Shown here piece by piece: positions 6,001 to 49,800 of a stretch of 64,000 nt of DNA; the first letter of the stretch is position 1, and every line of letters starts with the position of its first letter. The notes beneath the pieces were generated by a model, which was given only the letters and a program-made list of their open reading frames with translations, was not told where the DNA came from and did no database searches. Origin of the DNA: Ectocarpus siliculosus. Its lineage: Eukaryota > Sar > Phaeophyceae > Ectocarpales > Ectocarpaceae. The position numbers and the translations under genes were made by a program. The stretch spans positions 3,954,943-4,018,942 of the forward strand of contig FN649743.1 of assembly GCA_000310025.1 (NCBI GenBank). The letters run 5' to 3'.

Positions 6001-8730
6001 CACCAGTATGGTTACCGCAACAAAAAAAACAGAGGTAAAAAAACAAAACGGTAACCTGGTTGCCGAGTTCACGAAATGAATTGGCTTGTTTTACAACGTC
6101 GTTGCCAAGCGACGAAAACCCAATCCCGATGGCAAACACCGAGGGGGGGGGCTTGTTTTACAACGTCGCTGCCAAGCGGTGAAAACCCAACCCCGATGGC
6201 AAACACCGCGGGCGGCGGGGGTGGCTTATATTTTTGCGAACGCACGGGAACATGTTCCAGGCATACGATTTTGGTGAGTTCGGTTTAGGTATAGTATTCC
6301 GGAGAGGTTGGTGTATAATAAAACAGCAGCTCAACAACAGCAGGCAGCAGCAGCAGTCGCAGCGGCAGCAAGAATGTGGTCGACAAGCACAGAGCAAGGT
6401 TTTCTCGCCTTCTTGAGGGGGAAGTCCCCTTCTTCTAGCGTTGGTGTCGCCAATGCATAGCAAACGAGGTAATCGTTTTCGTTGCCTTCAACCTTGCCCC
6501 AGAAGACCATCTTCCCTTCCAGACGCTCCTCCCGCTTCCGCTGCATCATTGACACCTGCCCGACAGCGATATTAATAGTTAGGGTCTCTGTTCGTCGTGC
6601 CACACTCTCTCTTTGTTGACCCCGTCATCATTCTGTCGGAGCCGAGGTCAGTCTCGCTGAAATCCCTCCGCCCCCCCATAATGGTGGTTGGGTAGATTAT
6701 GTTGTGCGGGGTCGACAAACCTTACCCCGTGCAAGGCGGATGGTCGCACCACGTTGCGTTCAATTCATCAAGCACCCTCGAGGCAGTTACACAGTGCTTA
6801 CAACTGTCTCTGGAAGTGAAAGCACCAGAAAATTGACTACGTCATACGCAGCTGTCATCCGCACGCAAGGAAATAAACACAAGATGCCGACCCTTCGCAG
6901 GATGCAGCGCACCCTTCATGCGACTTGCCGAATACCTCACGGTGCTTCCAGCTTGGTGATGTGAGAGCCTGGTCCGGTGAGGAACCCGGCGTGCTCCGTC
7001 CCGGCGTTGTAGGTATGCGAGGTCAATGTATGGCATGCACGACTATGAGTAACCCCCTCCCCCCCCCCCCTTCTCCCCCATACGCGGGGCAGGCGTTTGG
7101 TTGTATGGTGGCTAGGTTAGGAGGTTCGTATTCACTATAACAGTTGGGAGGGACTGTCCCCAATCGTCTCAATCGGGGGCAATGCCGGAGGACGTTCTGT
7201 AAGCACGCGTCGACATCGAGAAGGTTTGGATTTGTTTCTGCTTCAATGTGGGGAACATCATCGACAGGCCGAAATACCGCAACAGCAGCTCACTTGACGA
7301 GCATCCCACGAACAAAATCGCTTCAAAACTGTCCATCGCACTGTCACCAAACGGTGCGCGAAATATGAGCGACCAAATACGTTGGGGCCGTGCCATGCGA
7401 TTGAAGGTGTATGTCTTGCAATGATACCTGATGACCTTTACAACCCAGGCCATTCGACATTGGCATCGCAGCTTGCTTCGGGCAAACCGTGCGGGTCCTC
7501 TAAGAGATTTTCGTTTCTATTGAGGTGAGCAGTGAAGAGATGATCTGTTGCACAAAAGGGAGTGTGATAAATATGTTTGCATCCTTACGACGACAGTTAG
7601 GTCAAGAAGAAAGCGGCAAGGATAGTATAGATGGACAACGCCTAATACTCAGTCTGATTTAAAGGAAACAAACAGACTAGGATTAGATTTTGTGTGCTGC
7701 GTGCAAAACTACGCGAATTGGGTTGCTACGAAAATGGAGAACAACAGCTTCTTCGATATCCCCCACATGCCTTGGACTGAGGGATCGCGTGTATATACCA
7801 TGTGTTCGCACGTGTCCAGAATGCAAGACTGTTCTGGAAGAGAGACACACGAGCACGCCTGGACAAATCGCTACTTCCATCCCTCTATGCGCCCGCGTAT
7901 GTACAAGAAAAAAAAATGTTTCCCTCGAAACGCGGCGAATAGTCTATCGCAGGGCACACGTGTCGTGATCAGGGTAAACTACAATGGATTGGGGACGTAT
8001 TTGTTGCGCGACGTTTTGCGCGAGCGGTTAAAATAATTTGAAACCGTCGTTTTGCGGGGAACATACTTCTTCGTCGGGAGGTTGCAGCGGTGTGGCCCGA
8101 ACCTCTCGTTGGCAAGCGAAATTGGTAGGCACACAGCTATTCCAGCGTCGAAGGACTTGTCCAACAACCTGTAGGTTGGACGGGGCTCCAATTTGGTGGG
8201 GGATAGGTAACCTTTAGGCACAAATTCATCGAGATCGGAGCAATGTGGTGTCGGCAGCACCTGCTGCATGCTCGCTTTTCGTACTTGAGAGTGCCGGTCA
8301 CCGATACAGCCAACCGTCAACCCAGAAGGCACCAATCAAGCTAAAACGTGCGGGGGGCTTCTAACGTAGTGCACGAGGGCCGATGGGGCGATTTCTCGCG
8401 TCTCGGGCGTTCGGCTCTAAAATGTTCGTGGTTCAGGCGTTCGGACTGAAAGTGATCATTCCTTCACATTTTTTATTACCGTTCTGTGAGACCTCAACTA
8501 GAGGCACAAGAATCCAGGCCATTCGACTCAAGAACCTGCTAGTTTTTCTACCACGTTTCGATCGAATGTTTTGGCGCGACCCCCACACAAGACTAACGGC
8601 GGCTTTGCGCTCGGGATACCCGCAGCCCGCGGCTACATCAACGTCTCACCTGCAATCCTGACCTCTCGGAGACGCTGAGTGTCTTTCCACAAGGTCCGAG
8701 GAAGTCCACGTGCCGAGAAATGTCCACCAT
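3074..8730 (-). CDS. RSPH9: Radial spoke head protein 9 homologue, 7 exons
   Basis: RSP9 is a component of the radial spoke head in the 9+2 axoneme and is needed for signalling between the central pair and the dynein arms. Seven minus-strand exons join in frame, all at phase 0: 8730-8650, 6555-6409, 5591-5421, 4425-4318, 4047-3943, 3743-3579 and 3148-3074. The product is 283 aa; human RSPH9 is about 276. The start reads MVDISRHVDFLGPCGKTLS. Family hallmarks follow in order: KMVFWGKVEG in exon 2, a Glu-rich acidic stretch in exon 3, IDRAVAVVPKGAL in exon 4, RNFEGLSVEA and SYFHFRNPESIE in exon 5, and DADFLDPIAADKPPGCW with LRSLAWPGYFFFHE in exon 6. The C-terminus is AYFGDGLPNTDLQFML then TGA. 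Intron 2 uses a GC donor (AAG|gcgaga); the other donors are GT. Introns 1 and 2 each carry a copy of the SINE-like repeat. The gene is divergent to the Sfi1-like gene. Confidence 0.93.
4508..4565 (+). repeat. Short dispersed repeat related to the SINE-like head
   Basis: The segment starts tgcatgccttagcggttcgg and ends with a cctcgagaggacgga motif. It matches 35795-35862 and, in reverse complement, about 43370-43412. It shares the 'gttagaccattgacc'-type box with the SINE-like family and is probably a related short element. Confidence 0.45.
4889..4950 (+). repeat. Fragment of dispersed repeat family 2
   Basis: The stretch around cctctagtgttgaccgaggc resembles the start of the copy at 33268-33415. 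A third copy lies at 43935-44060. It falls within RSP9 intron 3. Confidence 0.4.
4985..5392 (+). repeat. Degenerate ~60-bp tandem repeat in RSP9 intron 3
   Basis: Six to seven diverged copies of a unit of about 60 bp. Each carries a 'gccaagttctcgagcgctac' core followed by 'tgtttgatgtaatgc' and 'aagcacaaag'. The last copy ends about 30 bp from exon 3 of RSP9. A fragment of the same core (taactgccaagttgttcagc) appears at 44086-44106 in a phosphatase intron. Confidence 0.7.
5592..6408 (-). other. GC-AG intron 2 of RSP9, mostly filled by a repeat
   Basis: The coding frame runs ...GDFPLKK and resumes FYFCVSSD. The only donor that keeps phase and the family alignment is AAG|gcgaga, a GC donor. The acceptor is cctcag|TTTTAC. 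About 590 of the 817 bp are a copy of the tRNA-headed repeat, and a (CAG)-rich tract lies near the donor. Confidence 0.7.
5621..6214 (+). mobile_element. SINE-like repeat copy A (full length)
   Basis: Head-first on the plus strand, antisense to RSP9. A poly-G run is followed by the tRNA-like head with boxes gtagtcattagaccattgac and ccgggttctcaccgg. A common body follows, containing tcacttccagagacagttgt. The tail has two copies of a ~60-bp unit containing gttttacaacgtcg and cgatggcaaacaccg. The head lies only 29 bp from the acceptor of RSP9 exon 3. Confidence 0.75.
6693..7068 (-). mobile_element. SINE-like repeat copy B (tail missing)
   Basis: Lies in RSP9 intron 1. It has the body and head of the repeat family but no tail units. 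It ends with gcacgactatgagtaacccc at the poly-C run near 7060-7073. It has diverged more from copies A, C, D and F than they have from one another. Confidence 0.65.
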
Positions 8731-11886: not shown

Positions 11887-14800
11887 GATGCTGCCGCTCA
11901 GCAACGCCTGCGGCGGCTCCGACGCAAGCGCCTCGCCGAGAAAGTGGTCGCCCACTGGAAAGACTTCGCCCGGGAAGGCATCGCCGAGGCTCGCGCCCGG
12001 GCCCACGCCTCCGCCGCCCCCCGGCGCCGCGGCCTGACTAGGTGGCGGGCTGGCGCGACGGCCCTCCGCTCCACCCGGCACCGCCGCACGGCGGACGCGG
12101 GACGGTGGCGGTTCCTCGCTGAGTCGCGCGGCTTTGCCACGTGGCTGGCCGCCACGCGAGCCACGCGAGATCGCCGTCGCCGCGAAGAGACGGCGGCGGC
12201 GGCGGCGGCGGCGGCGAAAGCGGCAGCGGCGGAGCGGGTGCTGACGAAGATCGCGAGATCGAGCCTGCAGCGGTGGGCGGCGTGGGCGGCGGGGCGGCGG
12301 GCGCGACGGGACGCCGGAAACGAGGTAAAGTATTGGACTGCAATCTTTCCGGACAATCCTCGTACCAGCCGATGCTTGGATATTTTCACATGGAGCATTT
12401 CGATGCGTGTATCCAACTTCACGTCTTGTCCTGTAAGATGGAAAGGAGGTGATAATTCAGAGTGTTTACTGAGGACGGAAAATTCTCATTGCCCATAGCA
12501 AGAACCTTGGGTCTTTCTTCCTCCGAATGTGGGTTAAACGCATCGTGCCCTTATGAACAATAATGCGTTGCGCCTCGTTTTTCCCTTATGACAAGTAATG
12601 CATTGCATTGTGCCCTTTTGAATAGCAATGCATTGTGCCCTTATGAGTTGTAATCCATTTTTCCCCTGCCATTGCCCCTTATGAACAGTACTGCATTGTG
12701 CCCTTATGACTAGTAATTCATTGTGCCCGTATCGTTGTGCCCTTATGAATAGTAAGGCACACACACACCCTGATCGTTGTATCCCTTAGAAGTGAGTAAT
12801 ACCCCCCCCCCCCAATCCGCCCCCCCCGGTGTTTGCCATCGGGGTTTGGGTTTTCGTCGCTTGGCAGCGACGTTGTAAAACAAGCCCCCCACTCGGTGTT
12901 TGCCATCGGGATTGGGTTTTCGTCGCTTGGCAACGACGTTGTAAAACAAGCCAATTCACTTCGTGAACTCGGCAACCAGGTTACCGGTTTTTTTTTTACG
13001 TCGGTTTTTTTTTTTTGGCGGTAACCATAATGGTGGTCGAGTAGATCATGTTGTGCGGGGTGGAGAAACCTCACTCCGCGCAACGGGGGATGATCGCACC
13101 ACGTTGTGTTAAAATGGTCAAGCTTCCTCGAGGCAGTTACACAGTGCTTACAACTGTCTCTGGAAGTGAAAGCACCAGAAAATAAATTAAGTCATACGTA
13201 GCTGTCATCCGTACGCAAGGAAGTAAGCACAAGATGCCGAACACCCTTAGCAGGATGGCAGCTCACCCTTCATGCGACTCGCCAAATACCTCACGGCGCT
13301 TCGCGCTTGGTGATGTGAGAGCCTGGTCCGGTGAGAACCCGGCGTGCTCCGTCCCGGCTTTGTAGGGATGCGAGGTCAATGGTCAAACGACTACGGCATG
13401 CACGACTATGAGTACACCCCCCCCCCCCCCCCCCCCCANNNNNNNNNNNNNNNNNNNNNNNNNNNNNNNNNNNNNNNNNNNNNNNNNNNNNNNNNNNNNN
13501 NNNNNNNNNNNNNNNNNNNNNNNNNNNNNNNNNNNNNNNNNNNNNNNNNNNNNNNNNNNNNNNNNNNNNNNNNNNNNNNNNNNNNNNNNNNNNNNNNNNN
13601 NNNNNNNNNNNNNNNNNNNNNNNNNNNNNNNNNNNNNNNNNNNNNNNNNNNNNNNNNNNNNNNNNNNNNNNNNNNNNNNNNNNNNNNNNNNNNNNNNNNN
13701 NNNNNNNNNNNNNNNNNNNNNNNNNNNNNNNNNNNNNNNNNNNNNNNNNNNNNNNNNNNNNNNNNNNNNNNNNNNNNNNNNNNNNNNNNNNNNNNNCTGG
13801 GAGCGCTGGAGGCGGCCGTGCTGCATGCCGCCTGGCGCGGGGACGTGGCGGCCGAAGCCCTCACCGGTCGGGCGCGGGCGGCGCTGGGGCGGTGGGGTCG
13901 GCGGGCGTCGGTGCTGCGGGCGCGGAGGACTGTCCGCGAAGAGCAGGCGAGATGTTTTTTTCTTCACTTCCTTTTTTGTGTGTATGTTGTTCTTCCGAAG
14001 GAAAGAAGGAAGAAGCTATTTTGGTCTTCCTTTTTGTGTGTCTGTTGTTCTTCCGCGGGAAATGAAGAAGAAGCTATGCACTCGTTTTTCGTCCTTCCTT
14101 TTTCTTGTGTATGTTGTTCTTCCACAAGAGATAAATAATCTATTTACTCGTTGTTTTATGTGCCTTTTTCAGTGCGCTGTTCTTCAGGAAACGAAGAAGT
14201 GAAATGGTTTGTATCCGCCGCAGCCTTCCTCCGGGTGTGTCGTGGTGGAGAGGGCTGATGTTTTGTGTCACGTAGATGTTGGACGGTTTTCCCGGTACGG
14301 TAGGGCAGTCAGAAGATTTAATGCCGCTTTGTCTCGCGGTTCGGCTTCTTGAAGCGTTTGTGGTGTTGGCGATCCCATGTGTAGACCCGACCTCCGATCA
14401 TACGATCATGACAGTTTCGATGCCGGGGCAAGAAGGCTGCTGAGCCCTTCTCAACATGGCCTTTGCGACAGAAACAGATGGGATGGTTGTAAACAACACG
14501 GGATATAGAACGTCACAAAACGATCGTTGTATTCGTTTGCACTTCTCTTTTGCCAGGCCTGTGTCCACGCGTCCAGCTTGCTTCCCGGCAAGCTCCGGCG
14601 TGCGATCCGCCGCTGGCGGCAGCATTGCGCGAACCGGCAGCAGTTCCGCCGCATCTTGACCGACGTCGCGACGGTCCCGCGACCACCGCCCGCGTTTCCG
14701 CGGCGAGGAGCCCCACCGACTTTTCCATGTCGAGCACCACCACCAACGCCGCCGCCGCCACCCCCGGCACCGACAACGGCGGAGGCGTTTGCTACGGCGG

Positions 14801-31918: not shown

Positions 31919-34900
31919 ATGAGCAATCCCGCCGCGTGTTCTTCGTCGCTGTCGTCGCGCTCGGTGCTAGCGGCGGTGGCGGCGTTGGTGGTGGCGATGC
32001 TCGCGGGCGAGGCCGGCGCGGCGGACGCGGGCCTCCCGAGCGACTATAAGGTGGTGCACACGCATGTGGTGATGCGGCATGGGGAGCGCACGAGGCTGAG
32101 AAAGGACACGGAGACGGAGTTCGGCGACAGCGACGGCGTGGCGGTGAGTTTCTTTGAGACCGTTTTTGGAAATGTACCCCACACAGAGTGTAGAGGGGGG
32201 AGCGGAGGGCTCCAGACTATCTTCCGTTGTTTTCAATTGGCCTGCGGACTCGTGTCCATTTTATTTGAGAATACCTTTTTAGAGTAAGTTTGCATGTGAC
32301 CACGGGAATCGACAGATGTTAGCTCAGGTACTGGGTAGAGAGGTTGGAACGGTTTTTGATGTGAAGACAGCAACAAATCAACAACAACAACAACAACAAC
32401 AACAAGATGCCATCTCAGAAAGACTACCCTTTCGAGATATAACCACCGTCAAGTCTTTACGGCAGTGAGTAGGAGGGAAACCGGCTGGAACTGGGCAATC
32501 TTTGTCCCTACTGCTCTTTGAAGAGGAAGAAGGTCGGCACGCTTGTCGTGCCTCTTGTTGTTAGGGCTGTCTTCGTTTACGCTGCTGCATTCCGTTCCCG
32601 ATGTACGTTTTCGATTGATGTCCTGGTGAGCGACAACATCCACAGTCGTGAGTGATTCCAGGCCGTTTGCTGACATCAGATTTTCTGCTACACTTCTTGA
32701 AGTAAGCAGTACCTGGTATGTATGAAGCACCACCACCATTTTTCGTCTCCTACCGTTTGCCGTATTTTGTCAGTTTTTTTTTGCACCTTTCGGTCATTGG
32801 AGTGTTTTCAAGAATGTGTGCAAGGTGATGGAAAGTTGTTTTGGTAACAAGCGTGTTGTGCGGCCAGGTGTGGTCGTGTGGTTGTCGTGCAAGAATTCGC
32901 CTCCGGTGAAGGAGACTAGGATACGCCTCAAAGAATGATAAACACAAGCATTGTATTCCTGGATGTGGACTCGAGCGAAGAATAGGCTCGTTGTGGACGA
33001 AGGTCTCGGCTGCTGCTATGTTGTGCAGCAGCCATGGCGTGGGATATCCTTGTTTTTTATAACCTGGGTGATGAAGTGAAGCTTGGGCGTTTGTGTTCGG
33101 ACGGGTGCGACACCGATTCGATTCGATCCGATTCACAAACAAACACAACACACCATTGCTTTTGGTGTCGCGGTGGGGTAACGGGTTACCACGATAGATA
33201 GCCCGAGACGGCGATGACATCTTACGACCGGTCTTGCGGTCCTCAAACCGCCAATATCAGTACAGCTGGCGCCCGCACTTTTGACCCTCTAGTGTTGGCT
33301 GAGGCTGAGGCGGAGGTTCTTACCGTATTCCTGGGGTCATGCTACGAATGGCCGCTATATAGGTTTGAGTGTAAGGGTTCTGAACCGGGCTCACAATGGT
33401 GCTAAAGTTCTTAGGCTTCGACGCCCAAATGCTTCTTCAGTGGGGGCGCTAGCGGTAAGTGGTCAGTTGGCGTGAACTTGTTTGTTGCGTTGGGCGTGAA
33501 ACTGTGTCGTCCTTGGTGCGCCAAGGGCGCCGCGGCACGTTGCGATGTCATGGTAGGAATCCGTGTGTCGTGGTGTCTGACCGATGAATGCCTGGACCTT
33601 CCCTTTTTCGCTCGTTCCGCGATCTGATCTGCAGCTCACCAACGTGGGTGAGGAGCAGTGTTACGACCTTGGGAAGCAGCTCCGGGAGAGGTATCTCCCG
33701 GCCAGCAACTCTGCGGAGTACACGACGACTATCGAAGGGCTGACGTTGTGGTATGATGCGGACCGAGTGCAGGTGATTCACGATAGATACCACCCCGCTC
33801 GGCGTTTGCCATCGGGATTGGGTTTTCGTCGCTTGGCAACGACGTTGTAAAACAAGCCAATTCACTTCGTGAACTCGGCATCCAGGTTACCGTTTTTTTG
33901 GTTTTTTCTACCTCGTTTTTTTTTTTTGGGCGGCAACCATAATGGTGGTCGAGTAGATCATGTTGTGCGGGGTGGAGGACCCTCACTCCGCGCAACGGGG
34001 GATGATCGCACCACGTTGTGTTAAAATGGTCAAGCACCCTCGAGGCAGTTACACAGTGCTTACAACTGTCTCTGGAAGTGAAAGCACCAGAAAATAAATT
34101 AAGTCATACGTAGCTGTCATCCGTACGCAAGGAAGTAAGCACAAGATGCCGAACACCCTTAGCAGGATGCAGCTCACCCTCCATGCGACTCGCCAAATAC
34201 CTCACGGTGCTTCGCGCTTGGTGATGTGAGAGCCTGGTCCGGTGAGAACCCGGCATGCTCCGTCCCGGCTTTGTAGGGATGCGAGGTCAATGGTCAAACG
34301 ACTACTGCATGCACGACTATGAGTACACCCCCCCCCCCCCCCTAACCCCCAAAGGGGAATGGTCCCCAAGAAAATCAAACGGGTTTCCTTGGCCATTTTC
34401 TCCAGGAGAACGCTATGATCGCAACCATCTGTATTCGGAAAGTGGTCCAGCGTACATGGTACGATCTCAGGAAAAACCAGGGTCGCTGTCGGCGCCCATC
34501 CCCGCTAATCGAAATTTGGTCCGGAAATCAGTTGGGGTTCGCGCCTCCTTCAAATCATGGATACAGGGAGCAAAGGGGGCAACCCGTACCGCCAGAAAAA
34601 AATCGCTCAACAGCGACCCCCCCCCCCCCAAAAAAAAAAAATCCACTCCCAATGGAACAATGGAGGGCGAAAGGGGATTGGTGCCGCCCCATGGGGAAAA
34701 CCCCCTTTCACTTTTCGCACACCGCGGTCTCCCCGGGTAACTTGGGCTCCCCCCGTCCGTCGGGGGCCAAGAATGGCATCCCGTCCACCGCCCTCCCCCC
34801 CACCTGGGAGAAGAAAAATCAAACCCCTTTGNNNNNNNNNNNNNNNNNNNNNNNNNNNNNNNNNNNNNNNNNNNNNNNNNNNNNNNNNNNNNNNNNNNNN

Positions 34901-37900
34901 NNNNNNNNNNNNNNNNNNNNNNNNNNNNNNNCTTTAGGTCCCCCCCCCCCCCCCCCCCCCTCAATTCGGAGGGGGGTAGCCCCCACATATTTGGGGAGTT
35001 TGACCTGTACAGAAAGAAAAGAGAGGTTCCCGGGGAGAAAATGAAAAAGAGGGGGTGTGACAGGGCAAATTTTGTAAAATTAAAAAACAGGAAAAAAACG
35101 TTCCCAATAATTGGGGAAAGAGGGGGGCCCCAAGGGCCCCTAGGGGCGGGGGATAAAATGGCCAAAAATTTTTTTTGGGTTTTGGGGCAAAAACTAAAAG
35201 AGCTCCCAAATTTGGGGGGTTTTTTTATTAGGGGTAGAAACGGTGTTCCTTCTCAAAAGGGACGGGGGTTCAAGGGTAAAAGGATTCCGCCAACCAAAAA
35301 AGGGGTCCCCCCCCCCCCCCCCCTCGGCCGACTTGCCTTTTTTTCCTACTGCCTCCAACGCAAGAAAGCTTATTAGGTTATTACGACAAAAGGCTAGGCA
35401 CGGAGCACGCAGACCCAACTTGACCGAATCTATTGTTTATCTAATATGTTTTGCTGGCCGAGAAGAACCTGCGTAGACCACTTTTTTTTCAAGCCCTCCC
35501 AATTTGTCTCCATAGCAGACGAGGGAGGGCAGTCGCGAACTTCCGGAGTGCTGAACCCCTTTCTTTGTTTTTGCGCGGCGGCTGCTACATATGCGGGTGC
35601 GGCTCAGATCGAGTCGAGCGGTTACGACAGGACTCTGGAGTCGGCGGCGGCGATGGCGTTGGGGCTGTACCCGATGGGCCAGAACGACACCGACGTGGAG
35701 CAGAACTCGCTCCTCTGGATGGAACAGATCGTCGTCCCCATCCACTCTTCGAAGCCTCAAAACGATCGTGAGTGTGATGTGGGGGTACTCATGTTGTGCA
35801 TGCCTTGGCGGTTAGACCAGTGACCTCGAGAGGACGGAGCAATTGTTCCCACAGGGGACGGTGTGCTCATAGCCGTGCATGCCGTAGTCGTTAGACCATT
35901 AACCTGGCATCCATACAACGCCGGGACGGAGCACGCCGGGTTCTCACCGGACCAGGCTCTCACATCACCAAGCGCGAAACGCAGTGAGATATGCTGTGGG
36001 GGGGTCGTGATTCTCACGTTCGGGGTATCATCCCTGAGGGGATAGAACGGCACACGGGTGGAGCAGAAGCTGTGGAACTATATATTATAGCAGATTTAAT
36101 TCCCGATCACCTCTTCAAGGTCTCGAAACGATCGTAAGCGTCGCTGCCGTTTCGTGTTTGGTTGAAGACAGCGCGGGGGGGTAGGGGGAGGGGGGGGCAT
36201 CGTCGTGATTTCACAAAGAGTAGTAGTAGTGGTGTGGGCCACCCCTCGAGACCATGTCTGTGATTCTGGGCTGCTGGAGGCCCGTGTCTCTTGGTGATTG
36301 TTCGGTGTGCGGGATGTGGAGACAGACGGCGGTGATGCATGCCACGGGCTTCACAAATGAAAGATCCAGGAAAAATCCTGGAACAATCTAGTGACGGTGT
36401 TGGTTGCCTGCCCCCCAAAAAGAATGAAATACTTGGGAGATCCTCGCTGTCGAATTTCGTTCTGTAGTACGTGTTTGCAAAATCTGTGCCCTGATGTTCT
36501 GCGTCCGTATGGCCCTTGCCGGTGATCACCCTCCCCCCCATCGCCTACCCAGAATTTCCGACTCTTTTTGCTCCGCCTGCTCCTGCGTGATGACTTTGCT
36601 ATTATTGTTGTTGTTGTTGTTGTTGTGATCACTGCTGCTGCTCCTGCTTGTTGTCTCTATGCCGTCAAAATGGTTCCGGTGTTGATGCTGATGTGATCGG
36701 CGCCCTGTTGCTGCTGTTGGTGATGATCCTTGCTCTTGTTGTCCGTAGCATACATCACGGCTCACGACAAGTGTCCCGTGTACAACGCTAACTGGATACA
36801 GTCCTACGAGAAGGACGAGTTCCAAGAACTGCAGGTCTGGTCCAAAGAACGTTCTTTGAAAACGTGCATGTGCATGCATGTAACGGAAAGCAATACCAGG
36901 TCGAAGGGGTGCGTTGCATTCTTTCATACCGGTAGTTTTTTTGTTGGTCTGGTTCAGTTGAAGCATAGCGGAAGAGGCGTTTGTTCCATGCTTGTTTGTT
37001 TTACCTCGTCGAGCGGGGCGCTCGGAGTTCCACGAGTGGCATATTCACGTAGCAGACTAATATTTCCCAGAACGCGAGGTATAGGGTCGTTTCTGATTTA
37101 TTCTCCCGTCGGACACAAGTTATTTTTGTGTGTGCCAAGAATGCCGACAACTCCATACTTGGCCTGAAAACGCCGACAATGAATGGCACCCCCGACCCTT
37201 CGCTTCTGTTCCAACCTATTTTTTGCGGGCCCTTGGCTTCTGCTCCAACTCATCTTTCTGTGTGAATGTGTGTCCAGCGCGTGGCGAGCGCGGAGCAGGA
37301 GGATGGGGCGGACGGGTTCATCACCCAGGTATACAACATCTTCGACGAGTATCGCGGTGCTAACGACGACCCGGACTGCTGGGACGAGGTCATCGCGTTC
37401 AAGCTGGTGAGGGACTCAAGTGATAGCGCTACTCGTAGGTAGATGAGGGGGGGAGGCGTTGGGAAGATTTCCCGGGCTCCGTTGTAGTTGCACTTGATAA
37501 CGTAGCGCGGAAGCTGCGAGAAGTAGGGGAGAGGCAAGACGGAGTGACGATGTTCCCGCTTCAATTGAGGTGGTACTTGCGGGAGGTGTGATCATGCGGA
37601 GAAGAGAGTAGGCCGGCACACTATGGATTGTTGTTTGGATTTAGAAGACATGTTTTTTTTTCATGTCTCGAGCACGTCGGGCATGCTGCTGTGGTTGCTG
37701 GATTTGGGCGTGCTTATTGTGCATCTGTGGCCGCTGGCCGTCAAGTTAGCTGTTGAGCTCGAATACCGTACAACATGGTTGTTGACGGGTTTCCGTGGGT
37801 TTCCTCCTCGTGCTCTACCCACGGGACAGTTGACCGTACAATTCACAGGGTTGATGGAACGCCAACACCACAAACTTTGAAATGGGCGTGGTTGCGTAGT

Positions 37901-40900
37901 TTTGTCGCACGATAGCGATTTGACACTTGTTTCCGCGATTGGAGGTGTCTGTGCACCGGTACAGCGACACGCAACGATAACACACATTCCATGTTGGGCC
38001 CAGCATCAAAAAAATCACGTTCTACACCGATGGTCAATTTCGGCTGTCTCTTTGCCCCTTGGAGGTGTTGGCCATGTTTCCTAGAAATCTGAATGTTGGT
38101 GTTCGAATTTATCATGTGGCAACCCTTTCTGTGGCAATATTGAGCCACACCCACCCAACCATGGTCCCCCTGGGACCACCAACCTTTCATGTGGAGACTA
38201 AGAATTTAACATGTTTGAAATTAGAGATGTCCGAAAGTTCTGCCGAGCAGTGAGTGGTACAGAATGTGGGATGGATGTCCATTCCATTTTGACCGAAAAA
38301 GAAGGGCACAGATCGTCCAGTCGGGGCACAAGTTGCATGGTATCCGATTTCCTTTCTATTTGTTTCTAGAACGGAAGGCAACTCTCTTCCAGTCCTAAAG
38401 ACGTACATGTCTGACACGCACCAAACCAGCTGTTTTATCTGAACAAGGTGCGGCTGCATTGTGTGCTTTGGTGTAATAAAGAAACACACACGTTCCTTTC
38501 CACCATGTGCTTTGGTGAATTGTAGAAACACACACGTTTCTTTCGGAGTTTGCAAGCCCTGAGGTGCTAAAGTACCCGAATGTAGTATGTCGATGCCGAT
38601 GGTCATTTGCTTTTTTACTTATTTTTTTTTGTCTTGGAACCTGCAGGACCAACTGGAGCTGCACGCCCCTTACAACCTGTGGGATTGCGCGAGGACTCTG
38701 TTGGCGGCAGGACAGGACCAGACCGTGAACTTCATCAATGCTGCGACGATACCCACCGACTTCTCGGAGCAGTACCCGGATATCATCGATGGGTGAGTGG
38801 AAGCGGCAAGAGGGGCGTGGTGGCGGCAGAGACACAGACAACAGCAATGGACGGACAGAGAGCTATTTTAACATAGTGGGGAAGATGGCGTCTTTGGGTG
38901 TCTTTGCATGTTTATTGGAATCGTACATACACCTTTACTTTTTTGTTTCCTGGGCAGCCGGTCAGACGAAAAAAGACAAGAAAGTTGGTCAGCACTGCCT
39001 TCCACCTCTGCTTCATCTGACGGAAAATATACAGTAGCCGCTGAAACAGGGGTGTGTGTGTGTGCTCATAGTCGTGCTTGCCGTAGTCGTTAAACAAGGG
39101 GGGGGGCGGCGCATAGGAACCGCAGAACACCCTTGCCAGTTGTTTACTTGCACCTATGCTCAGCACTTACAGCAGTACGGTGATGTTAGGGCACAGAGCA
39201 AGAATATCGACGGAGTTTTTTTTTTCACGAATTACTTTTATGTCAGCGATTCCATTTTCATAGAAGTTCTGGCGGGTGGGAGCTCCGATCCGATCCGCGG
39301 TCACACGGAAGGGTTGCTCTCCCTGAGTCTACACCGTTTTTTGAAGTAGAAAATGATAGATAACGATGGTGTGGCCCCGTCTTTGACTTTGATAGTGCTT
39401 CGAGGCGTTGATAGGCACGCGTGCGCAGTTATTTTTTTGCTCGCTTGTTCACAATTCGATGAAGATGGGAGGCTCTTGGTGCATCTTTTTTGTGCCTGCC
39501 GCGGGCCCTGTACCTTCCGATGTCCTCATGGACGTTGTAGCCGTCAATGCGCTCGTGGATGTTGTACCTTCCATCGTTCTCATGGACCCTGTACCTTCCA
39601 TTGCCCTCCTGGATGAAGTACCTTCCATCGTCCTCATGGGCGCTGTACCTTCCATTGTCCTCATGGGCGCTGTACCTTCCATTATCCTCATGGACGCTGT
39701 ACCTTCCATTATCCTCATGGACGCCATACCTTCCATTGTCCTCATGGGCGCTGTACCTTCCATTATCCTCATGGACGCTGTACCTTCCATCATCCTCATG
39801 GACGCTGTACCTTCCATTGTCCTCATGGACGCCATACCTTCCATTGTCCTCATGGCCGCCAGGCGCTGTACCTTACAATGTCTTCGCGGACGCTGTACCC
39901 TCCGATGTCCTCAGGTGGCTGTACCTTGGGTGGCTTGTGGACGAGGTGGAAGACATGAAGTACGAGCAAGACGTCGTCGGCCGCTACGCTGCAGGCCCCT
40001 ACCTCACTGAGTGAGTGCCGTCGTGTTGCAGTCAGTTCCTGTTGATGTTGCTGTTGCTGTTGGTGGTGCTGTTGCTGTGCCGACGCTGCTGTTGATGTTT
40101 CGTGATGGTGATACTGTCGCTGTTGCCTGCGTTGCTGCGGGTGTTGTTGTAATGTTTTAGTGGAAGGTGCTGTGAGGCGAAGTCGTCGTTATCGTAATTT
40201 CAAGGAGCCGCTATTAATAGTAGCTATTGTTGTTGGTGGTGTTGGTGGTGGTGGTGGGGATTTTGCGTTATTGTGCAGGTGAACCGTCTGTGGCGCCTTG
40301 AACGTGCATGCATGCATGCTTCCAGCAATCAAAGGGTGCTGGAAATCACGCAGTTTTGCGTGGTACCCGTATCTCACCCTGTCCGGTGATTCCAGCACTA
40401 GATACATATCTACGGAGATCTAGGGTGTTTCGTGTATGCATCATGTTGGAATGTTGTGTTGGGTGAGGGCTGCTTATCGTCAGAGACTGCAGATAAAGGT
40501 TTGGCTCAGGACCTCGGTTACTAGCGAGTGTGCAGGGCATGCCCTAGATCACGGTAGATCCTTATGTAGTGCTGAATACACCAAACACGCCCGATCTAGA
40601 TACAATACAACCCCTCCCTTGGGTCTTCGAGAATACACTGCCTGAACAACCCCCCACGGTGTTTGCCATCGGGGTTGGGTTTTCGTCGCTTGACAACGAC
40701 GTTGTAAAACAAGCCGCCCCCCCCGGTGTTTGCCATCGGGATTGGGTTTCGTCACTTGGCAATGACGTTGTAAAACCAGCCCCCCCCCTCGGTGTTTGCC
40801 ATCGGGGTTGGGTTTTCGTCGCTTGGCAACGACGTTGTAAAACAAGCCGATTCACTTCGTGAACTCGGCAACCAGGTTACCGTTTTTTTTTTTTTACCTC

Positions 40901-43900
40901 TGTTTTTTTTTTGCGGTAACCATGAATGGTGGTCGAGTAGATCATGTTGTGCGGGGTGGAGAACCCTCACTCCGCGCAAGGGGGATGATCGCACCACGTT
41001 GTGTTAAAATGGTCAAGCATCCTCGAGGCAGCTACACAGTGCTTACAAACTGTCTCTGGAAGTGAAAGGACCAAAAATAAATTAAGTCATACGCAGCTGT
41101 CATCCGTACGCAAGGAAGTGAGCACAAGATGCCGAACACCCTTAGCAGGATGCAGCTCACCCTTCATGCGACTCGCCAAATACCTCACGGCGCTTCGCGC
41201 TTGGTGATGTGAGAGCCTGGTCCGGTGAGAACCCGGCGTGCTCCGTCCCGGCTTTGTAGGGATGCGAGGTCAATGGTCTAACGACTACGGCATGCACGAC
41301 TATGAGTACCCCCCCCCCCCCCCGGTCTGTTGCTCCAGAATGAACCTCCGCATGTCACAGGTGATCGAGCACGTGCGCAGCGGCTACATGAGCAACGTGG
41401 GCCGCTTCCCCGGGATGCACATCACGTCCGGTCACTACGGAACTCTCAAGGGCATCGCCGGGGCTCTCGACATCGACGCTATCGATGGCATTCCTGAGTG
41501 AGTTTGTTGTCGCAAGAGGCTTTGGTGTTTTTTTACGGTGTTCATGTGTGTATTGGCGACAGTTTTTGCGCCAATCCTTGTTCTTGCTTTGGACGTTACA
41601 ACCTCACAACATCACTTCTGTTTTTTTGTTTAACGCCAAACATTTTTCTTGCTGCGGACGCCTCAATACGGTGGGGGGGTCGATGTTTAGTGCCGGTTGA
41701 ATAGCGTCAATGCCCGGTATAGTGCCGTTGAATTTTCCGGGCACAATTTTCCGGGTACATACCGGCACTATTCAGGGAACACCACTGTAGCACTTATTTT
41801 TCTTCGCGAATCCTTGTCCTGGCTGTGAACATTACAACGTCTTTTGTTTTTGTGAATCCTTGCCCTTGCTGTGGACGATACATTTTTTTGTTTTGTTTTG
41901 TCTTCACTTCAAATCCGCGCTCACGGCACCTGTGCTGTTTACTCTTGACCTGTGGTACCACAGAAGGGCTCAATAGCACTTGTTTTTTGGTGAATCCTTG
42001 TTGTTGGCGTGGGCACAGGTACGCTTCCCACTTTGCGTTCGAGCTCCTGTACAACGGATCTGCCAACCATCTGGCGGAGGAGGAAGACTTCGCGATCCGA
42101 ATCATGTACCAGGATGGGTGAGCTGTTCTTGTCTTACCCTTGCTCCTTGTATAAGCAGCAGCTCTGTGTGTGGGTGCTGATCATGCTGATGTAGCGATCG
42201 GAATCATGTTGAAAGACGGGCGAGCTGCTGTTGTGTTGCCCTTCCTCCTTGTCGGACGTGTGGTGTGTGGTGCTCATCGTGCTGACGCAGCGATCAGAAT
42301 CATGTTCCAAGATGGGTGAGCTGTTGCTGTCTTTGTTGATAGTTGTAGCTCTCGCGTTGTGGAAGCTTGTCGTTCTGTCTTCGAATCGTTTTCCAAGACG
42401 GCCGAGCTGATGTCTCAAGATTGGTCCGTGCGTGGCAGCTAGTGTGTGAGGATGCTCGTCGTCCTTGTTGTGGCGTTCCCACTCTGTGTATCACACGGCA
42501 GGGAGAAGGGGTAGTGATATGCACGAGGTATTCATGGTGTGGCGTTTTTTTTTTCACTGTAGCTGTTGTTGTCGGTGTGGATTTTTGGAGCTGGTGTTGC
42601 TGTGGTCGGGGTTGTATTTTTGGACAAGAGGACCGGGCTCCCTAGCCCCCCCCAGTCTTCCGTATGCCCCCCCTCCATCCTTACTGTCCTATTCTGCGGT
42701 ACCCCCTGTCCCTCACCCTCCTGCTACATGCACAACCCTCCACCCCCAAACCTTGTCGTCAACTTCGGAAAAAGTTCGAGCACCAGCGACCTGAACTTCG
42801 CCGTCATGGGCCAAGTGTACGATGGGTCTGGGTCCATCTCCGACTTCGACGAAGAGCTGTCGACGATGAGAGACTACAACACGGGCATCATGGGGTGGAC
42901 CCAGTGGGACTACCTCATGGACTACCAAAACGCGGGGAAACCTGTTGTGTACGAATCCGTCGAGGAGTGGTGAGCACAAGAAATATTTTTAGAAAATATA
43001 CGTTCAACACACAGAGACTATCCGTTCGGGATGCATCCACAGCAGTCGAAGGGGATGTGTTGGAATCTTTATAGTGAATGGGACGAGAAAACCGGCTGGA
43101 TACCTTTTGTTTGTTCTGACGGTATCATTCTGCGTTTGAAGGAGGCGTCATGTACGACTAAACAGTTAACAAGATTTTTTTTGTTGCTTTGTCGTTACAA
43201 CTTTCTCTTGTTTGGGAGGACAAGAGGGAAATCCGGGTTCCCAGCAAGGGGTCCCGCCGAAATCGCAAATTTGTTCACACCCCCCCCCCCCCGCTCCTGC
43301 GAATTTCGCACACACGCCCGCCCCACGCTCTGGCAAAGTAGGAAGACACGATTGGCCATCGGTGATCGGTCCTGTGGGAACCTTGCTCCGTCCTCTCGAG
43401 GCCGCTAAGGCATGTAAAGAAAAGAGTACCTCCCCCCCCGCCCCGCCCCCCCCGCCCCGCCCGCCCTGCAGGTGCCTGGACTGTCTTGCCACCGCTCCCG
43501 ACACTTGCATTTCCCAGGAGCTAGAGCTGATGACACAGCAGTGGGAGGAGGCTAGCGTTCAGGCTGAACAGGCGACGGCGGATTTCGAGGAGGCGGACGA
43601 CGGTATCGGAGGCAAGTACATGTAGGACACGTCAAGATACTACCCCCCTACAGGTATCGGAAGCAAGCAACTGCTGTAGCATACGTGAGGTACAACACGC
43701 ACACACAGGCATCGGGCGCAAGAAACTACTGTGGGACACGTAAGATTCACATCCCCCGGGTATCAGAATTAAGAAACAACAGCAGTAGGACGCGACATAC
43801 AACACGCACACACAGGTATCGGACGTAACAATTATGCTATAGGACACGAAGTATACCACATCCCCCCAGGTATCGGAAGTAAGGAATAGATAAGGCGGCC

Positions 43901-46770
43901 GCACTAGCGAACCTCTATTAATATCAATAGTTTTGGCCGGGGGTGGGTTTCTTACCGTATTCCTGGGGTCATGCTACGAATGACCGCTATATAGTTTTTT
44001 GTGTAGGGGTTCTTCGCTGGGCTCAATGGTGCTACAGTTCTTGAAATTTCAGTTTCTTTTAGGCTCTATCAATTTACTCATTAACTGCCAAGTTGTTCAG
44101 CGGGCGCTGTGGTGCTGTAGGACACGTAAGATACCACGCCCTCCTAGGACCGAACTTGAGGCCCTGTTACTCCACGACAACGAGCATGCCAAAATCTCTC
44201 GACCAGACTGTTGTAACGCCGGCATTTTTTTAGTGCAGTTTCTGTTGTTTGCTGCGGAGTTTGGAGTCGGCCTTCGAAAATCGATCTCAAGGCGCGTGGC
44301 GTGTTGTGCGACGTACGCAGTAGCCAGCCAGACCATGCCTGCCGCTGCTGTTGAGAGGTGTTGATGTTCCGCCGACCTGTGCACTGTGGAGCGCTTTCGG
44401 GACGAACCTTTGTTTTTTGCCCCCCATGCCATCAAGGGTGTCTTGTGTATGGTTGTTTCCGTCCAGAGTTCGGGTGCTCGCTTTTCAGGCTGCTAGCCCT
44501 TTCTGGGAGGAGTTTTTCGCGCTGCCCACCCCTCAAACGTGTCCTTAGCTTCCCGCGGAGGAGTTAGAGTGTCCTCTTTACATTGCGGAGCACTTCCGGG
44601 GTACAGTCGTGGCTGCGATATAGCAGGGTGGTGTGGCAAAGGCCCTCGACCCTGTTGTTCGACCCTGTTATGTCGGAGCTCCCTCTTATATCGGAATAAG
44701 AGAATACTCAGCTATATTCTATAGAGGTTCGAGTCCTTGAAAACCGAATTCGACCCTCTTAGATCGGAGCCCCGGCATTAGAGGAGAGTCAACTATACCG
44801 TAGAGGAATCGAGTCCGTGACAATCGATTTCGACCGTTTAATATCGGAGCCCCCTCTTATCCAGTACCCTCTTGCGTTGGAGCCCCTTCTTGTACGGTAC
44901 CTCTTGTATCGGACGCATGACTGTATTAGTGTTTTGCTTCCCCCGGCCTTAAACATGTACTGCCGTACGGCTTCCGTTCCGTTAATATTGATGCAGGCGT
45001 CCACGTTGCCCTCTTGAGCATCTTCGGAGTGGTCCTGGGCATCGGCATCGGCATCTGCATCAAGCCCTGCGTGGACCGGCACAACAACAAGCTCAAGAAG
45101 AATAGCCAAGCGTCCACCATCTCGGGGGACCGCGGGCTGGAGGCGTGGTCTTCTGCCGCCAACAGGTGGGAGGGGAGGGATGCCGTTCGGTGTTTGTTGC
45201 TGGCGGTTTATTGTTGGTCGTTGCTTTTGGAAGCCGAAATCAAACAACTAGACTAGTCAGCTTCTGCGTGCTGCTGGTGCTGGTGTCATTGTTGGCGTTT
45301 TGCTGTTGGTCGTCCCTTCAGGTGCCGAAATAGCACATATATATTTCGGGTTCTACATCACCCTCCTGCACGTATAGTCGTCCATGCATGGCATTGTCAA
45401 GCACCGTTTGTGTATTTTTCAAAAATGAATGTAGATATGTAGATCTTCGCGCCACCCTCTTTGCTTTCTAGTCAAAATACCAAACACGAAGCAGAAACGA
45501 GAATACATAAGTCCCGTCAGACTTGTTGTGCTTCACTCGCTGTTTTACTAGTCAACTAGTATGTGCGGCGAGAATGCGTTTGTTAAGGATGATGTGTCCC
45601 CTTTGCGCGCGAGTGCGTATTATGAAGGCCTTACATTTTCGATGTTTCCCATGTGGTAAGCGCTTGTAGAGGTTAAGTCAAGATGAACGCACGAACCCGT
45701 CTGCAAGAAGCATGACTCTTAACGCCGTTGTAATATCCCGTGTCCCGTGCTCAAAACCGGTACGGTACATTCCCGCAGCCACAACGGAAGCTTCCGGCTC
45801 GGGGCTAAGCACACCCCCACCCGGCAAGTCGGAGGCAACCGCATGATGGCCGTGCCGTCGGCACCAGACGACGACATGGATAACTCGGCACGGATGGGTG
45901 GCGGCGCTAACGGTGCCTACGCCAACGGGAACGGTAGCGGCCAGTACGACGTCGAAGAAGACGTGGCCCCTGGGTGAGGAGAACGCCGAATATATATTGT
46001 TTTTTAATGGGTTGGGTCGATATGGATGGATGTGTGAGAGTCAACGTGCGTTTCTGGTTGAGATCTGTCTTCTCTTCCAGCCACGTTTTTTGCTGTTGTG
46101 CAATCCGAGTAAGCGACAAAAGTGTACGTCATGCAACACTGCTTGACGGAATCGTTGCTATTCATATTGAGTTTTTTCTGGACTCTTTTTCTGTGAAAAG
46201 ACGTCATGCAACACTGCTTGATGGAATCGTTGCTATTCATGTATGTAGTTTTTTCTAGACTCTTTTTCTGTGAAAAGAGATGAGTTGGGTCTTTTGTGAC
46301 TGTAAGAAATGAAGAAAATGCCAAGCGTTTGACAATGACGTTTCACCGCAGAATTACTGTCGGCTGTAGTCGATGTGTTTTGTACCAAGTTTCTGTCTCT
46401 CTTCTCTAGGGGCTCTAGTGTAAGGGTCACGCGTGTATTTCTGACGCCCAAACGGTGGCGGGTAGGGGGTCGAAACGTTCTGATGTGGTGAGGAGGCCGC
46501 CCGCCCTTAACAGACGGTCTTAACAGTGGTTGGTCTGTTGTTGGCGTTGATGATGGTCATGGCGTACTCCTTTAGGGGCCTTTTCATTTTTTGACTGGTC
46601 TCCGTCGTCCTTCGTTCTCCCCTTTTTTTTTTTCTTCAGGATCCCCGAGTTCGCACCGACCTCGGCGCTGGGCGAGCCGGTTCCGTTCCCGCACAAGTAA
46701 GGGCATGTGTTTTTGTGGTGTCGTGCGGTGTGGCGTTGCCGTACGCTTTGCTGGTCCGGGTCTCTGAAGT

Positions 46771-46820
<50 letters not shown>

Positions 46821-49800
46821 TCTCCGCTGGGAGCATGGTAACGTTGTGTCACACGCAAATATACGTGTCGATGATGAAATGAGAGAGCGAGGCCCTCGTC
46901 TCCACTCCGTGGAGGTGTGGACATGAAGGGGGCGCTGTTGAATCTGTGAAGCAGGCGAGCACGCCGACCCAACACCGCTCTCTATCGCTGAAATCCGCGG
47001 TGGGGAAAGGCGGGATAAATTGCACCCTGCCTGTGATAGACGGTGGAGACAAACAATCGACGGAAATAGGCCAGGTGTCGTGGAGTCGGTCTTGGCCTGA
47101 GGCGTAAACGCGTGTTGACAGCAGTGCATAGACGACCACGAAGTTGAATTTTTGTTGGGCCTGTTATTTTCTGGAAAGGGGGTTGTCACCATCTTCTCCG
47201 TCTTTTGTACGAGAGCAAGTAGAAGCACAAGTTACGACACTCGCTCGCTCTCGCTCGCTAGACTGTCCTGGGCTTGATGATTGAATTCATGGTCCGATAA
47301 AGCTCTTTGCTTCCTTGTGGGAGATACCGTTGGTTGCAAAAGGCACCTCCCCCCCCCCCCCCCCCCCCCCGCGGGACCCGATTTTCGGAGCCTTAACTGC
47401 TCCACGGCGCGGAGGAGCAAGAATTCAATGATTCGCATGTTTTGGGCAAGGTCTCAAACCGGCGGCTCCAACCCCCGCCATTCTCGGAGCCGTGGATGTT
47501 TTCGCACTCGGTGCAGGGGGCTGTGGTATATTACGTATGCAACCTGCGGTAAACTTGACGAGGCGTGGCCGAAATACGTCGGCGGTGCGCACGGTTCGGT
47601 ATACACACGCCCTCAGCTTTCTACTGTAGTACGTAGGTATACGCACGCCCTCAGCTTTCTACTGCAGTACTTAGGTATATGCACACCCTCAGACTTCTAC
47701 TGTAGCGGTCATGCATGCTTATGTGCCCCCCTTCCTCCCTCCCCTCCCGTCCTCATGCTTGTGGTGGTTCAAAGGCGGCAAGCATCGGGAATGGTTTCCG
47801 GTGTGGACTCGAGCATGATGTCAGGCATCGACGCCGAGGACGTAGACGACGATGACGTCGCGGGAGGCGGCACTTCGCGTGAGTTGCTCCACTTCCAGTA
47901 ACAAGGCCCGCCCGACACGCTCGCGCGAACAAAAAAAACGAAAAAAAAAAAACGTAACGAAAATGTAGATTACCCTACTCCACCACCACTCCATACCCCC
48001 CGGCACGCGACGAAAGCGACACAGCACGAAATCTCAAAAAGCGGAGATCGTGCGAGAGGACGAAGGCCCTTCGGCATGGGACGATCGTGCGCGCTCTCTC
48101 TCTCTCTCTCCCTCTCTGTCTCTCCGTCTCTCCCCGCTTGAGCTATCCCGCTGCTGCTGGTGGTGCTTCTGCTGCCGCTGCGCTACTCTCGAGCGAGCGA
48201 TAGGGAGCGCACTTCGGGTAGTGGGCGGGCGGCTAGTGCCAATTTTTGGTTTTTTGCTCGCCCGTTCGGTTTCTTTGGTGTCGTTCGAGTAGGCGTTCTG
48301 TTGGAGGGGCTGGGGGCCAGCAGATCGCACCATAGGTAAGGGTGGCATCAATCGTTTGTTATTGTTCCTTGTGGCTTTCGGCATGGGTATGGCGATGTTC
48401 GTCGATCCCCGCCCCCCGACTTTTGAGATCTCCGCTACAGAGAGAGAGAGAGAGAGCGAATAGCGTTCGAAAGATTATAGTAGCGTGGTATGTGTCCGTT
48501 TCTTGCTTTGTCGCGATGGGTTATGGGGGAACTGCAGCGGTAGGCGCGTAGTACGATGCAGGAAGGGGTTGTTGATTGGTGCGGTATTCAGGTTTGACCG
48601 CTGTTGGTTTCGGGGTTGTTTTTTCGTCCCCCAGCCTCCCGTGTTTTTCTGTCCTTCTACGGGTTCTGTCGTAGGTCGTAGGCTTACTGCTGTTGTGTTA
48701 CCATCAACTGGTTTGTCCCTTACACCTGGCAGCCAAGATTTATTCGTGTTTTGGGACACTGGAACTGCTCATTCATCTGTGTCAGAAACCATCTAACTCG
48801 AAGTGTTGTGCTGGAGCGTCAGGGATGATGACAAGGCAGAGATAGAAGCAGCCGATGGCGCGCGCGCGCGGGGGGGGGGGGGGTATGCGGAGTGGAACAT
48901 GTGTGTTTTCTGTAGTGGGTTTTGAAGCGTGTTGCGTTCATGGAATCACTTTCCGTCTGTATCTGAGGTTACCGGCCTGTGGTATCGGCCCGTCAAGTGG
49001 TTCAACCGCAAAATATCTGGAACACAACTGCGGTAGTAATCTAGTAGTTGCGGCCGCATTTTCGGTGGACGACACACGTCAACAGCCTTACCTTTCCTTG
49101 GCTGGGTTCTTCGATTATGTAGACATGTTGGACAAGCGTGCAATCGGGGAGGTTGGGTTAGGGATAGCATTAAGGACTTTGAGGGTCTGCGTACCCCCTT
49201 CCTCTTGTAGTTCCTCATATTATCAAACTTAGTTTTTCGCGAAGGCCATCCACACAGGTGGAGTAATCAAGCTGTCGCGTGCTCTCAATAGTGCCGGGTG
49301 CTTGATACATGGCCGGCCAACTGCCTTGCCATTGTTAGGCCTTGGGTCTTGTTCAGCCTTGTACAATACAGGACCCCTAGGGTATTAGAGGCGATTTGGT
49401 TTTGATATCCGCCGTATCTGCTTGTTGTCTTTTGATATCTCGTGTTGAGGTGCCGAGTCAGCGAGTCTTTTGAGACGGATCGCACGGGATCACGACTTAC
49501 AGGTGGCTGCACCGGTCTCACCACAGCACACACCATGACAAATTTTTCTTGTTGGCAACACTCTCGCGGAAGAGATGTACTTGCATGCATGATTTTGTTT
49601 TTTATGGCCTTCGCGGATTGGGAGACTGTTGATGTTTCTTTCAGGGTGGTTGTCTCGCCCCTTTGGGCGAAATGATTGAAGCGGGGATTGGGGGACTGCG
49701 AGTAACTCCATGGTAAGCAAAGAAATAAGGGTTTGTGACCGTTTCTGCCCCGCATGATGTACACCGTGGTAGAACTGAAGGAATCGCCGTCAAGAGGATG

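Follow-up and report, generated by a model that had tools for sequence, protein, structure and literature searches.

What happens to a 5' splice site when the segment that carries it is copied several times in tandem is the question raised by a phosphatase gene of the brown alga Ectocarpus siliculosus, in a stretch of 64,000 nucleotides of contig FN649743.1 (below, the window). The end of one exon of this gene, together with its donor, is followed in the intron by further copies of the same words, and an initial annotation of this DNA proposed both that most copies form a tiny intron plus a very short exon, and that the array may show how introns lengthen by copying their own 5' splice sites. 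The reading that best accounts for the locus, to which we give a probability of roughly 85%, is that the array is a degenerate minisatellite, of the type termed mirage, lying over an exon-intron boundary, with the first donor most likely being the one used and the copies being passive ballast.

The host gene and the array at one of its donors

Thirteen exons of the gene were placed on the + strand by reading frame and splice words, i.e. at the level of sequence. The first of them encodes VVMRHGERTRL, the RHGxR part of which we take to be the motif of branch 2 histidine phosphatases; Pfam His_Phos_2 gives weak matches in two of the eight stretches scanned (E 0.00075 and 0.036), both of them under the curated cut-off. 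The gene appears to encode a branch 2 histidine phosphatase. The exon that leads into the array is entered in phase 2 after ccctgcag and left in phase 1, the frame being open when it is joined to 44997; its end and donor were placed as in the initial annotation, its number in the gene was not (Table 1). The last 10 nt of this exon, GGTATCGGAG, are at the same time the start of unit 1 of the array, and the boundary reads GGAG/gcaagt, with the slash marking the splice position. The GC donor of the intron, GAGGCAAGT, has a matrix score of 6.3 (training donors, 4.2 to 11.9), and GC donors also make up 2 of 27 CCT chaperonin and 4 of 39 kinesin donors; the GC donor at 43611 is unremarkable for this genome. 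No second locus matching the exon pair was found in the genome at E <= 0.001.

Table 1. Positions in the window of the exon pair, the array units and the inserted element
Feature	Position	Strand	Basis
Phosphatase exon, 10th of 13 placed (exon 11 of the initial annotation)	43472..43611	+	frame and phase, inferred
GC-AG intron, 1385 nt, containing the array	43612..44996	+	frame/phase and donor score
Unit 1, 51 bp, covering exon end and donor	43602..43652	+	
Unit 2, 55 bp, preceded by AG, donor-like gcaagc (score 1.7)	43653..43707	+	
Unit 3, 51 bp, preceded by AG, donor-like gcaaga (score -0.9)	43708..43758	+	
Unit 4, 56 bp, neither splice word kept, ttaaga (score -0.3)	43759..43814	+	
Unit 5, 54 bp, preceded by AG, donor-like gtaaca (score 0.4)	43815..43868	+	
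Unit 6, first part, donor-like gtaagg (score 6.1)	43869..43888	+	
Dispersed inverted-repeat (MITE-like) element in unit 6, ~230 bp	43889..44117	+	dispersed matches and alignment with 13 copies
Unit 6, second part; first 7 bases may be the element end	44113..44147	+	local score against shuffles
Next exon, opening with a hydrophobic, membrane-span-like stretch	44997..45165	+	phase match, open joined frame; span judged by eye

Five extra copies follow the exon donor, as had been claimed, at unit-to-unit spacings of 51, 55, 51, 56 and 54. Relaxed Tandem Repeats Finder (TRF) scores the array at 344 for a period of 107 bp, the best, and at 214 for 54 bp, the second, against a maximum of 92 in 500 dinucleotide shuffles (periods of at least 15), which rules out a chance origin; with default weights, the array is absent from the TRF output. 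Pairwise likeness between units ranges over 61-81% in the first of two alignments and over 58-78% in the second, and the tails of units 1-5 alternate, with C-runs after units 1, 3 and 5 and CA-repeats after units 2 and 4. It is because of this alternation that the best period spans two units, and the two-unit period in turn implies that the array probably grew, in part, by two-unit blocks. The left edge of the array lies inside the exon, and the exon sequence upstream of it differs from the unit tail.

The donor-like words gcaagt, gcaagc, gcaaga, gtaaca and gtaagg are as they were first reported. The accompanying description of a unit, as such a word combined with a tract ending in AG, holds for four of the five extra copies, in which an AG ahead and a GC or GT 9 nt later are kept (giving a would-be exon of 9 nt), and fails for copy 4, where the donor word is ttaaga and cccccgg stands in place of the AG ahead.

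The last unit is split. Its apparent stop is at about 43888, near the end first proposed for the array (~43890), and its second half resumes at 44113, the stretch 44113-44140 aligning to the latter half of the unit consensus at a local score of 49 (maximum of 33 in 1000 dinucleotide shuffles), which predicts an insertion within unit 6. Among 115 candidate matches to 43884-44115, 40 were scored, of which one is the self-match and the other 39 are at 71-88% identity. In an alignment with 13 other copies, the element ends, judged by eye, are inverted repeats of ~26 bp, the left end lying near TACAGAACGCGCCCGCACTTAAGAAC; TA flanks the element on both sides in the window (43887-43888 and 44118-44119), where its ends, the right one included, are uncertain by a few bases. 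The inserted sequence is judged to be a MITE-like DNA element. A match to it, 88% identical, is also present at 33317-33412, in the first intron of the phosphatase gene. Since unit 6 is complete but interrupted, the array extends to about 44147, beyond the end given in the initial annotation, and since it is a dispersed element that splits the unit, the array is older than the insertion.

The array was looked for in 189,456,909 bases of the genome, in 492 contigs. A blastn search returned the self-match only; the word GTATCGGA, taken twice at a pitch of 48-60, has two places in the genome, both in the array (reversed control, 1 + 1); and TATCGGANGYAAGNAA with at most one mismatch occurs 70 times (3 in the array) against 84 for its reversed control, with no other place among the 70 occurrences where two such words lie within 300 bases. 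No second array was found by these blastn and word searches, which can miss diverged or masked copies, and a dispersed repeat family is rejected as the source of the array. Introner-type sequences are characterized by near-identical copies at many genome places, and this array was found at one. One part of the refuting condition named in the initial annotation, an occurrence of this array elsewhere in the genome and remote from exons, was likewise looked for genome-wide and not found in the same searches. With the left edge in the exon and no second array found, the proposal that the intron grew as a segment with its own 5' splice site was copied in tandem is supported.

The copies as splice sites

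The stronger proposal, that the units are micro-introns and micro-exons, would make the copies a chain in which 9-nt micro-exons alternate with micro-introns, so that GIG-type triplets are inserted in frame ahead of the membrane-span-like stretch of the next exon. The arrangement of splice words in the four copies described above is as such a chain would have it, the 9-nt pieces are in frame, and the joined frame of the exon, copies 2, 3, 5 and 6 and the next exon is open. The pieces are in frame, however, because the last 9 nt of the exon were copied, and their frame is no evidence of use. The would-be micro-introns measure 42 nt (43612-43653), 46 nt (43663-43708) and 45 nt (43825-43869), with one of 98 nt between copies 3 and 5 because copy 4 lost both splice words, whereas the shortest of the 55 CCT and kinesin introns with both ends inferred is 143 nt (median 415); the median for Ectocarpus autosomal introns is given as 524 in the part of the published source used here (PMC12477816). 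The donor scores of copies 2-5, including copies 2, 3 and 5 on which the chain would depend, are all under those of the 38 training donors, on a matrix that leans on its seeding words, since the CCT and kinesin junctions were themselves inferred from profile continuity plus splice words. Copy 6 scores inside the training range; used as the lone donor, it would lengthen the mRNA by 267 nt and bring in an in-frame stop (TAG at 43623) just past the exon end, a stop that any later donor used alone would meet. That the units work as a series of micro-introns and micro-exons appears unlikely, and as an explanation of the array we would give it hardly any weight; this part of the initial annotation was not upheld.

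A recursive (ratchet) splice site consists of a pyrimidine tract and CAG followed directly by a strong donor. It may be that the juxtaposed CAG/GTATCGG words of the array are decoy or stepping-stone (recursive-type) sites of this kind, tuning removal of the intron. CAG/GTATCG stands at units 2, 5 and 6, i.e. in three of the five extra copies, and has a U1 pairing of -7.2 kcal/mol against -5.5 for the actual GC donor (the gene's other donors, -5.2 to -10.3); units 2 and 6 have acceptor tracts that match real ones in pyrimidine richness. Donor-like sites are in excess in the intron, which has six extra sites scoring at least 6.0 over its 1385 nt, whereas other introns have 38 such sites over 26,558 nt (1.43 per kb); three of the six lie in units 3 and 6 (43740, 43879 and 44126) and a fourth, at 43943, in the inserted element. 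In addition, the best-kept block of the unit is GGTATCGGA, with a mean column identity of 0.889 against 0.648-0.677 and a column permutation p of 0.004-0.01, but its conservation is non-significant once all blocks are scanned (p 0.11-0.20). The species matrix, by contrast with the pairing energy, puts CAG/GTATCG at 3.9, slightly less than the training minimum of 4.2, and a site spacing of ~50 nt right at the 5' end of an intron 1385 nt long would bring no obvious stepping advantage. A decoy or stepping-stone role for these words is very doubtful. That the copied donor and acceptor words see some minor use in any of these ways, whether as decoy or stepping-stone sites or as rare micro-exons, tuning intron removal and occasionally lengthening the linker ahead of the membrane-span-like stretch, is quite improbable, and splicing use of the array copies in general seems unlikely.

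The donor scores also bear on a different order of events, in which the repeat arose within the intron and only later came to overlap the exon, when a shift of the donor 9 nt downstream extended the exon into unit 1. An alternative in-frame GT donor, GACG/gtatcg, is indeed present 9 nt upstream of the GC donor, where it coincides with the left boundary of unit 1; its score of -1.5, however, is under those of all 38 training donors, and an exon extended in this manner is improbable.

Local duplication at donors and elsewhere

If donors in general seeded duplications, copies of exon end plus donor would be expected to lie downstream of donors in other genes more often than downstream of other intron positions. 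A copy within 400 nt is present for 1 of 27 CCT donors against 14 of 273 interior points of the same introns, and for 1 of 39 kinesin donors, that one near simple sequence, against 6 of 224 interior points; pooled, this is 2 of 66 donors against 20 of 497 intron-interior points, a sample small enough that a modest excess would be missed. The donors of these other genes are at the background rate, and duplication seeded by donors is rejected as a general rule; the wider idea of donor-seeded intron growth finds no support in this sample. In the phosphatase gene itself, 3 of 12 donors (43611, 42117 and 35767) have a downstream copy of exon end plus donor within 500 nt; within 400 nt the count is 2 of 12, against 36 of 261 intron-interior points. 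A separate count of interior points with a copy gives 60 of 418, both controls including points inside the donor arrays themselves, and 22 of 440 control points having been excluded from the phosphatase-gene count as low in complexity. Acceptor copies number 0 of 12 in the phosphatase gene, where coordinates are off by up to 7 nt and two acceptors are uncertain, and 0 of 27 in the CCT genes. The counts suggest that donors are no special sites of duplication, and that the phosphatase gene is itself rich in local duplications.

The CCT set derives from 59 exon matches, giving 49 neighbouring pairs, of which 18 were skipped (profile gap outside limits or matches too close); 31 introns were called, of which 4 were dropped for disagreement of more than one codon and 27 kept. 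For the kinesins, 138 matches were reported, 46 pairs taken and 45 donors called; 39 donors were kept for score and position, with both intron ends known for 28. The donor-copy and acceptor-copy shuffles keep base composition only, those for TRF and unit 6 keep dinucleotides.

The phosphatase gene has a second donor-crossing array, at 42071-42333, in which the exon end and donor at 42117 (GGATGG/GTGAGC) recur at 42219 (GGCGAG) and 42315 (GGTGAG), at spacings of 102 and 96. These copies of exon end and donor are located near 42194-42252 and 42290-42333, and that at 42315 retains TGGGTGAGC, the nine-base donor word of 42117. For the exon end and donor at 35767 (35735-35775) there is one copy, at 36101-36141, +366 nt in the intron, with 32 of 41 bases alike. 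At a CCT chaperonin locus (L025), an exon end and donor at 3689-3713 are copied once, 98 nt downstream, at 3787-3811 (23 of 25 bases); this duplication is judged to be an event of the same type, in a gene with no relation to the phosphatase gene.

Repeats of other types are also found in the window. A 27-bp tandem repeat of ~15 copies (39508-39927) lies in another intron of the phosphatase gene, and a 67-bp tandem unit (GGTGTTTGCCATCGGGG...) occurs at 6083-6212, 12819-12952 and 40650-40849, in both orientations. The stretch 40860-41323 is a high-copy, young-looking repeat, with 2845 candidate matches, 39 of the first 40 scored being other places at 96-98% identity; its terminal C-run, at ~41323, leaves some 15 nt to the AG that probably serves as acceptor for the next exon, and a recent insertion may here supply the pyrimidine tract of that exon. 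Shortly before the last placed exon there is a 38-bp array of 2.8 copies (GGTATACGCACGCCCTCAG...) at 47598-47705, the units of which likewise link a GTATAC word to a CTCAG word; compared with the six-unit array, it gives a local score of 27, a value reached by 8 of 1000 dinucleotide shuffles (maximum 32).

Growth of the intron and comparison with known systems

On the preferred reading, that of a minisatellite grown over the exon-intron boundary, two steps can be read from the units themselves. A segment of ~54 bp, made up of the last 10 nt of the exon and the first ~44 nt of the intron, was copied in head-to-tail fashion, in part probably by blocks of two units, to give six units, and a MITE-like element later inserted in unit 6; the gain in intron length is ~270 nt from the extra copies and ~230 nt from the element. 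The spliceosome would most likely keep the first, exon-joined donor, the copies then being intron ballast with decaying splice words. The array can be regarded as a readable fossil of intron growth, in which an intron's own 5' edge was copied repeatedly and a mobile element then came to lie among the copies.

The name 'mirages' was given in amphioxus Adh3 to tandem repeats that lie over exon-intron boundaries, and such repeats were described again in globin genes; in the portions of the amphioxus report drawn on here, the units are of 10-72 and 150-160 bp, many have AG/GT signals, and cited data suggest no interference with regular splicing (PMC3087553). In common with the mirages of Adh3, BflGb6 and BflGb9, as these portions describe them, the Ectocarpus array has tandem units of tens of bp over an exon-intron boundary and AG/GT signals in many, not all, copies (PMC3087553). 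The first of its six units contains the exon end and donor, over a boundary inferred by frame, its units of 51-56 bp lie within the ~10-160 bp range taken from the same portions of that report (PMC3087553), and splice signals are present in four of the five extra copies. A mirage is further expected to differ in copy number among haplotypes and to leave regular splicing unaffected. By its sequence, the array fits the mirage minisatellites, and ordinary minisatellite turnover, by which the growth of the amphioxus mirages is explained there, would likewise account for its growth (PMC3087553). Unlike the amphioxus mirages as there described, the array is older, is broken by a transposable element and has a GC donor, and the likeness of its units is 58-81%, as compared with 81-100% in BflGb6 (PMC3087553).

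No brown-algal report of such minisatellites was found in the open-licence literature searched by title and start of abstract. In human factor VII intron 7, the first unit of a repeat is said to span the donor. The repeats of this intron are of 37 bp, and their copy number is said, in the part of the source available to us, to correlate with mRNA level (PMC3492156). The array resembles this repeat in being an intronic minisatellite of similar unit length; the factor VII repeat is, according to the same part, polymorphic in people, whereas the array is known from one assembly (PMC3492156). Variable internal tandem repeats at exon-intron boundaries in human segmental-duplication genes may, according to the section of the report used here, cause novel introns (PMC2812944). 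These share with the array units of minisatellite scale at exon-intron boundaries, but are described in that section as recent, variable and linked to novel introns or alternative transcripts, whereas the array is old and lies inside an existing intron (PMC2812944).

In the potato RdRp gene, intron gain by tandem duplication across a boundary, following the Rogers model, is described in the part of the report consulted (PMC4974935). There, as in Ectocarpus, a boundary between exon and intron lies within the duplicated segment, and splice signals are copied with it; in contrast to the potato case as that part presents it, the array copies sit inside an existing intron, and a new intron is not evidenced (PMC4974935). 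Boundary-spanning minisatellites, reported in amphioxus and human genes, are here present in an unrelated, intron-rich genome in which the sampled donors have such copies at no higher rate than intron interiors, and this suggests that such arrays are ordinary local duplication that happens to cross a splice site.
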